Positions 24,482-24,999 of a DNA stretch of 36,412 nucleotides are shown piece after piece (the first letter of the stretch is position 1; each line of letters opens with the position of its first letter). A program made the position numbers and the translations under genes. This stretch comes from a virus. Under the pieces are notes generated by a model, which saw only the letters and a program-made list of their open reading frames with translations, was not told the origin of the DNA and did not search any database. The stretch spans positions 1 through 36,412 of IMG/VR virus record IMGVR_UViG_3300033821_000024. One strand, 5' to 3'.

Positions 24482-24739
24482 ATGTCGAACATAAAAATAG
24501 TAGTTGTTGATCGTGGTTGGGTTTTCATTGGTAATGTTTTTAAAAGTGCAGAATCAACCTCAATAAAAAATTGCCATGTTATTAGAAGATGGGGAACATC
24601 GGAAGGGTTGGGAGAGCTTTGCATTAAGGGAAAATTAGATAAAACAATTTTAGACAAATGTCTTGATGTAGAAATTCCATTAAAATCTATCATTGCATAT
24701 TTGGATTGTGATCAAGAGAAATGGAATAACCTATTATGA
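24482..24739 (+). CDS. Small conserved phage protein, array-associated (locus 2)
   Basis: An 85-residue protein with AAAGGAAAAATAAA before ATG 24482. Its pattern ('VVVDRGWVFIGNVF', 'HVIRRWGTSEGLGELCIKG', 'KTILDKC', 'IAYLDCDQEKW') matches a widespread phage family I recall by sight. It aligns loosely along its whole length with the 87-residue protein at 8848. Likely a small beta-rich fold. Its stop overlaps the start of the glycine-rich repeat ORF in an ATGA, so the two are translationally coupled. As at locus 1, family member and hexamer array come as a pair. No function is known to me. Confidence 0.7.
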   Translation: MSNIKIVVVDRGWVFIGNVFKSAESTSIKNCHVIRRWGTSEGLGELCIKGKLDKTILDKCLDVEIPLKSIIAYLDCDQEKWNNLL

Positions 24740-24999
24740 TAACTATTTCCATGCTTCCCTATCGCGATGGCTATGGCGATGGCTATGGCTATGGCAGCTA
24801 TGGCGATGGCGATGGCGGCGATGGCAGCTATGGCGATGGCGATGGCGGCGATGGCTATGGCGATGGCGGCGATGGCTATGGCGATGGAGGCTATGGCGAT
24901 GGCTATAGCTATGGCGGCGATGGCGGCTATGGCTATGGCTATGGCGGCGATGACTATGGCGATGGCTATGGCTATGGAGGCTATGGCGATGGCTATTGA
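24736..24999 (+). CDS. Hexanucleotide-repeat ORF encoding a Gly-(Tyr/Asp) dipeptide array (locus 2)
   Basis: An 87-residue protein whose last 77 residues are almost only Gly, Tyr and Asp, mostly alternating Gly with Tyr or Asp, with a few Ser and Gly-Gly steps. The codons are GGC followed by TAT or GAT. The start ATG shares bases with the stop of the 85-residue gene (ATGA), good evidence that this frame is translated. The product would be disordered, acidic and tyrosine-rich, a composition known from phase-separating or sticky proteins. Other frames through the repeat are also open, as expected for a hexamer without stop codons, so open length alone is no support. Confidence 0.6.
   Translation: MITISMLPYRDGYGDGYGYGSYGDGDGGDGSYGDGDGGDGYGDGGDGYGDGGYGDGYSYGGDGGYGYGYGGDDYGDGYGYGGYGDGY
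24766..24996. repeat. Hexanucleotide-type array (GGC-KAT) of about 230 bp
   Basis: GGCTAT and GGCGAT units run for 77 codons, with occasional GGC-GGC, AGC and GGA steps. The unit differs completely from the NAGACC array at 8635, but follows the same rule: a fixed hexamer with one main variable base (T or G here). Confidence 0.92.

Follow-up and report, generated by a model that had tools for sequence, protein, structure and literature searches.

When a small gene runs directly into an open reading frame (ORF) made largely of alternating Gly and Tyr or Asp codons, is the repeat kept as a protein or as DNA, and what could it do together with the gene in front of it? This question is raised by a locus at 24482–24999 of a virus record with P22-like portal and coat genes. 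The whole stretch of 36,412 nucleotides that was analysed is referred to here as the window.

A small gene overlapping an acidic Gly-X reading frame

The locus starts with the gene of an 85-aa protein of a family that we call F2 (24482–24739, plus strand), which is supported by its ORF, by relatives and by a predicted structure with matches in the PDB (see below). An AAGGA resembling a Shine–Dalgarno sequence lies 8 bases 5′ of its start (24469–24473, plus strand). As the preliminary description of this DNA had claimed, the stop of this gene overlaps the start of an 87-codon ORF in an ATGA, which can be seen directly at 24736–24739 (plus strand); upstream of the second start, the sequence offers only a weak GGA. 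The second ORF (24736–24999, plus strand) would encode an acidic, Tyr-rich protein of 87 aa, consisting of the leader MITISMLPYRD followed by GY and GD units. Its Gly (39), Tyr (19) and Asp (17) residues add up to 75, not to the 77 or so reported before, and are joined by 4 Ser; the codon counts are 37 for GGC, 19 for TAT and 16 for GAT.

The underlying GGC-TAT/GGC-GAT repeat (24764–24993, plus strand) was recovered by TRF as a 6/21/27-base repeat, far from chance. The array had been described as one of hexamers, which holds for the period of six but not in the strict sense: single GGC and AGC codon insertions (giving GGDG and GSYG) slip the 6-base phase by 3 and leave the codon frame unbroken. 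Two plus-strand and two minus-strand frames are free of stops across this array, with a Met-Ala ORF at 24767–25042 as one example of another open frame, so that openness by itself proves nothing and the frame needed a comparative test.

Another such pair, locus 1, lies on the minus strand of the window. An 87-aa protein of family F1 (8848–9111) is followed there by a basic 69-aa ORF of Ser alternating with Arg, Trp or Gly (8627–8836), which was delimited from the ORF list and by repeat and frame analysis and starts 11 bases 3′ of the stop of the small gene. With this Ser-X pair and the Gly-X pair, the window phage has a basic module as well as an acidic one. An AT-rich short tandem repeat (TTTATAAAACTTTTATAAC, window 8570–8630) adjoins the end of the locus 1 array. 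Elsewhere in the window we noted a phage lysozyme (11949–12371, plus strand; PF00959, E = 5.2e-7); neither tRNA genes nor Rfam families were found in the window.

Comparison of the reading frame among relatives

Scans with the window F2 protein and the locus 1 F1 protein collected relatives at F2 loci L001, L004, L006–L013, L068–L071 and L080–L083 and at F1 loci L002, L005 and L014–L058. The F2 loci include phages deposited in GenBank, those of Rheinheimera, Rhodobacter and Eggerthella and uncultured ones (L004, L068–L071), as well as four bacterial MAG contigs (L080–L083). In nearly all F1 and F2 loci, a period-6 array lies directly 3′ of the small gene. Alternation is seen in any frame of a hexamer, and we therefore assigned the frame by a rule blind to composition, which takes the start codon nearest to the stop of the small gene and prefers ATGA-type starts. 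Near-identical duplicates were excluded from the resulting set of 60 loci, which are still related and do not represent 60 independent trials. By this rule, 19 of the 20 F2 loci gave (Gly-X)n and 39 of the 40 F1 loci gave (Ser-X)n (58 of 60 in all), and both exceptions hold the expected ORF from another start (20/20 and 40/40, hence 60/60). Conservation of the reading frame in relatives, named beforehand as a check, was thus met.

Synonymous codon use varies freely from locus to locus. The dominant Gly codon of a Gly-X locus can be GGC, GGG, GGT or GGA, and among the 40 F1 loci the dominant Ser codon was TCG in 19, AGC in 7, TCT in 7, TCA in 5, and AGT and TCC in one each. Since TCN and AGY are not interconvertible by one synonymous change, serine is the thing conserved. 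Residue alternation is even retained without a DNA repeat in the aperiodic arrays L006 and L012, the Gly codons of L006 being so mixed (GGA 7, GGC 6, GGT 7, GGG 1) that the DNA repeat is nearly gone while Gly-X is intact. L044 lacks a regular GG motif, uses codons for Arg, Leu, Tyr and Trp, and still reads Ser-X. Judged by comparison of these sequences, the repeat is conserved as protein rather than as DNA, in agreement with the initial argument that it is not only a DNA element.

Gains and losses of units stay in frame as well, as was to be expected of a protein repeat according to the preliminary description. In a comparison of 115 Rheinheimera phage records, the listed ones differ in this region by 0, 6, 30 or 42 bases, and the sequenced arrays measure 174, 180, 204 and 216 bp, each a multiple of 6. 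Two loci (L078 and L004) show zero mismatches across 3 kb of flank and differ in their arrays by one GGCTAC unit. Selection on the F1 leader peptide is weak, with pN/pS of 0.76 in frame and of 0.90 and 0.94 in the shifted frames of an unselected set; a ratio of 0.36 was disregarded, because the leaders behind it had been chosen by their residues.

The overlap itself is common but not obligatory. An ATGA-type overlap was found in 27 of 40 F1 loci and 6 of 20 F2 loci, and another type of overlap in 2 and 9, respectively, which gives an ATGA-type or longer overlap in 29/40 and 15/20 (44 of 60 in total). The rest start 3′ of the stop, after a short gap and with the frame kept. Scorable arrays from the reverse scan described below overlapped, among the matches listed, in 27 of 30 cases for F3, 28 of 32 for F2, 27 of 35 for F1 and 15 of 34 for F4. 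Conservation of the ATGA overlap in relatives is therefore widespread rather than universal, and of the two losses that had been named as refuting a protein, that of the overlap or that of the frame with the repeat kept, the former does occur and the latter does not.

Pairing of repeat chemistry with partner family

Viral contigs were also scanned from the opposite direction, for the DNA patterns (GGNNAY)7 and (TCNNGG)7 alone, which yielded at least 238 loci with at least 261 arrays. Upstream ORFs, with the arrays trimmed off, were scored with profiles, and two more families, F3 and F4, came to light. At least 139 arrays had a recognised partner (66 Gly-X and 73 Ser-X among the matches listed). 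Within these listed matches, the Gly-X partners were F2 (32) and F3 (34) and never F1 or F4, the Ser-X partners were F1 (37) and F4 (36) and never F2 or F3, and there was not a single cross (Fisher 2.5e-41, uncorrected for relatedness). As far as profile matches can tell, the pairing is specific, Gly-X going with F2/F3 and Ser-X with F1/F4.

Among the matches listed, no partner was recognised within the upstream sequence of 41 Gly-X and 40 Ser-X arrays that had at least 300 bases there, and 22 of these 81 have a recognised partner elsewhere in the locus. The remainder include arrays behind long unrelated proteins and perhaps arrays with other partners. In L293 and L266, the gene in front of the Ser-X arrays encodes another small protein, roughly 112 aa long (..ASFFITEHNNNEKILLRLDEGKHKETIIEITDIT..), possibly a further partner family. 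Contigs L015, L018, L024, L025, L030 and L041 stop within an array, which is what a repeat that breaks assembly would lead to; these genes are probably under-counted. In practice, a contig whose end is a GG-rich hexamer repeat next to an F1–F4 gene is probably broken within a real gene.

Families F1–F4 and DUF6948

The F2 protein had initially been called related to the protein of locus 1. At the level of sequence this could not be upheld, since neither BLASTP of F1 against F2 nor hhalign of the two profiles gave a match; at the level of predicted fold it could, both proteins matching Sm/LSm structures. Links by hhalign exist between F1 and F4 (96%), F2 and F3 (95%) and F1 and F3 (90%), so that F1 and F2 appear to be connected only via fold, F3 and shared N-terminal segments. 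In L038, the F1 and F2 proteins have a 35-residue N-terminus in common, and the F2 protein of L081 carries the LTIGEAK segment typical of F1. Segments of the form V-x-Y-V-R-x-D-S (L005, L031, L004) and L-T-I-G-x-A-K-x-L-A (L041, L081), or close variants, are common to families with different cores.

F3 corresponds to Pfam DUF6948 (PF22253; E = 1.6e-30, 105.5 bits, above the curated cut-off of 27 bits), and no Pfam match was obtained for F4. Of 11 F2 members, 5 matched DUF6948 (best E = 8.5e-5). The window F2 protein did not match it at E ≤ 0.01 and is thus a distant relative rather than a member by Pfam's rule, which its sister F3 passes. Searches of PHROGs returned no useful matches, nor did a search of a plasmid collection with an F1 protein return any.

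Of 39 records searched, three (the window, L033 and L038) hold both F1 and F2. In L033 (1227–3362), a single run has the order F2, three Gly-X ORFs, F1, Ser-X, a Gly-X ORF, F1 and Ser-X; the end of the first Ser-X ORF there duplicates the F2 C-terminus, which suggests that modules recombine. Seven tandem arrays lie 3′ of one F1 gene in L044 (235–2157), where the final codons of the gene and the leader recur in front of at least the second array. A Gly-X ORF at L068:2231–2545 (MW202613.1) is annotated as 'lamprin', an evident low-complexity misannotation.

Predicted Sm/LSm fold of the small proteins

Single chains of the locus 1 F1 protein and the window F2 protein were modelled by AF2 with high confidence values (pLDDT 95.6 and 94.3, respectively), and in both models the elements follow one another as three strands, a short helix and three more strands. 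Structures were matched by Foldseek and VIA-align. The F1 model aligned with the archaeal SmAP 1i8f (Z 9.9, the highest for this protein; rmsd 1.5 Å over 65 residues), and the best match of the F2 model was 3by7 (Z 8.9, rmsd 2.4 Å over 71 residues), which is described as 'structurally similar to Sm/LSm-like RNA-binding proteins'. All PDB matches among the matches listed, for F1 as for F2, were Sm/LSm or LSm-like. Since its Z values are under 8 below rank 7, F2 is the weaker case. In BFVD, the same fold was found in DUF6948 proteins, and weaker matches were annotated Sm-like cyanophage proteins. We therefore predict, on the basis of these models, an Sm/LSm fold for the F1 and F2 small proteins, i.e. 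a short, strongly bent beta barrel of five strands.

The profiles of the families did not match any Sm protein of the PDB. Inspection of the alignments by eye further revealed no apparent Sm1 Asp/Asn uridine-binding motif, which leaves RNA binding uncertain. An RG, which belongs to the uridine-binding residues of Sm2, is, also judged by eye, common in the Sm2-like strand of F1 and absent from the window's own F1 protein.

Possible joint action of the two proteins

The repeat had been predicted to be acidic, which applies to the arrays of the F2 family (median net charge −7.5, with one exception at +2) but not to the sister family, whose arrays are basic. Among the matches listed, the medians were +9 for F1 and +8 for F4 arrays, and −9 for F3. 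The small proteins that go with basic arrays had a median charge of −3 (87% negative), and those with acidic arrays a median of 0, neutral to basic, again among the matches listed. Between families, the charge of the arrays thus opposes the tendency of their partners, which in effect compares two clades; no correlation between array and small-protein charge was seen within families. In L109, one 219-aa ORF (4963–5622) consists of a DUF6948 domain followed by a Gly-X tail. This fusion is a single case, for which a frameshift of sequencing or assembly cannot be excluded.

We propose, with about an even chance of being right (probability roughly 0.5), that the pair is a two-gene phage module in which an Sm-like ring is accompanied by a separately made low-complexity tail, by which RNA binding or assembly would be tuned. 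For this we rely on comparison as regards the frame, the alternation and the specific pairing, and on prediction as regards the fold. The first gene would give a small Sm/LSm-fold protein, probably ring-forming, the ring being inferred. The second would give a separate polymer in which a small residue (Gly or Ser) alternates with a functional one: Tyr, Asp or Asn in acidic Gly-X, and Arg, Trp or Gly in basic Ser-X. Coupled translation, itself an inference, would yield both proteins in step. The polymer might then associate as a detached tail with its ring through charge and aromatic contacts, and compete with or tune nucleic-acid binding, or condense rings into an assembly during infection. 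A Gly-Asp/Tyr chain could act in trans as the acidic tail of Hfq does in cis, and a basic Ser-Arg/Trp chain could be the partner of an acidic ring or connect such a ring with nucleic acid. Physical association, nucleic-acid binding and a biological role are likewise inferred, without data on expression, binding or phenotype, and condensation is made plausible by composition alone. A bolder version, which is in our view doubtful, is a widespread system in which Sm-fold rings and a matched chain, acidic Gly-[Tyr/Asp/Asn] or basic Ser-[Arg/Trp/Gly], build a condensate or ribonucleoprotein body inside the infected cell, and in which some phages (the window, L033 and L038) would unite both chemistries.

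Discussion

Several other readings have to be weighed against a ring with a detached tail. If the repeat acted as DNA or RNA, be it as a G-rich GG-every-six element, a protein-binding array or an RNA held by a ring protein in the way that TRAP holds spaced triplets, the open frame would be a by-product. In both families, most loci do show the GG dinucleotide at a spacing of six bases, arrays expand as DNA repeats do, and our first F2 profile weakly matched TRAP/MtrB (E = 0.75). However, GG occupies codon positions 1–2 in Gly-X and 2–3 in Ser-X and is missing as a motif from L044; frame and alternation are kept in all 60 loci despite differing codons, TCN versus AGY serine included; and the folds matched are Sm/LSm, not TRAP, the MtrB match having gone with a larger profile. 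A DNA or RNA role is hence highly improbable, and a repeat that is nothing but DNA or RNA was rejected on the codon evidence and on L044. Resemblances to TRAP/MtrB and Nup98 (E 0.4–0.8) were discarded as being at chance level.

The layout of a small gene and an overlapping gene resembles that of type II toxin–antitoxin systems, and Arg/Trp-rich peptides can be membrane-active, which could point to a killing pair whose repeat peptide is toxic to the host and neutralised by the upstream protein. We regard this as quite unlikely: one small gene may precede several arrays (seven in L044), acidic Gly-Tyr-Asp polymers are unlike membrane-active peptides, and no toxin family was matched, Pfam and PHROG being without notable match, although a new type is not excluded. 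A structural polymer, in the form of a gel or of two-faced beta sheets like those of silk, built for example round phage DNA during its replication and assisted by the Sm-like protein as a minor chaperone, would account for the i, i+2 alternation in both chemistries and for arrays of similar length, several per operon in some phages. It seems unlikely to us, as Asp- and Asn-rich stretches would disfavour sheets, structural evidence is lacking and the strict pairing with an Sm-like partner would stay unexplained.

As far as we found, the gene pair has not been described. Our literature search brought up no paper that describes DUF6948 or contains such repeat strings, which is weak evidence, since papers seldom print sequence strings, and the report on the Rheinheimera phages does not mention the repeat (PMC6715854). 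The uncharacterised DUF6948 and its relatives F1, F2 and F4 can now be tied to a predicted Sm/LSm fold and to a repeat partner that is usually annotated as 'hypothetical protein' and once as 'lamprin'. Phage Sm-like proteins as such are already known, from names in BFVD and from 3by7; for the detached polymer in two chemistries, we found no described counterpart.

The ring with a detached tail can be compared with three known systems. The Sm/LSm superfamily, including archaeal SmAP, eukaryotic Sm/LSm and 3BY7 from an uncultured marine sample, has the same predicted fold, whereas F1 and F2 have no apparent Sm1 Asp/Asn, no profile match and, as partner, a separate repeat protein. In Hfq, the tail is disordered, and its acidic tip binds to the basic Sm core, for which it competes with nucleic acid (PMC5606850). 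The likeness lies in an Sm ring with a low-complexity tail; the phage tail differs in that it would be a separate polypeptide, is a dipeptide repeat and comes in acidic and basic versions. Condensate proteins of the FG, SYG or RGG type carry 'stickers', either aromatic or Arg, with Gly or Ser between them. The phage polymers likewise space aromatic or Arg residues with Gly or Ser and, with phase behaviour being inferred, differ in being phage-encoded, in their near-regular two-residue alternation and in their tie to an Sm-like partner. If the pair works as inferred, phages would hold natural minimal sticker–spacer polymers, both acidic and basic, matched to Sm-like rings, and thus a simple natural system for studying the control that disordered tails exert over RNA-binding rings and condensates.
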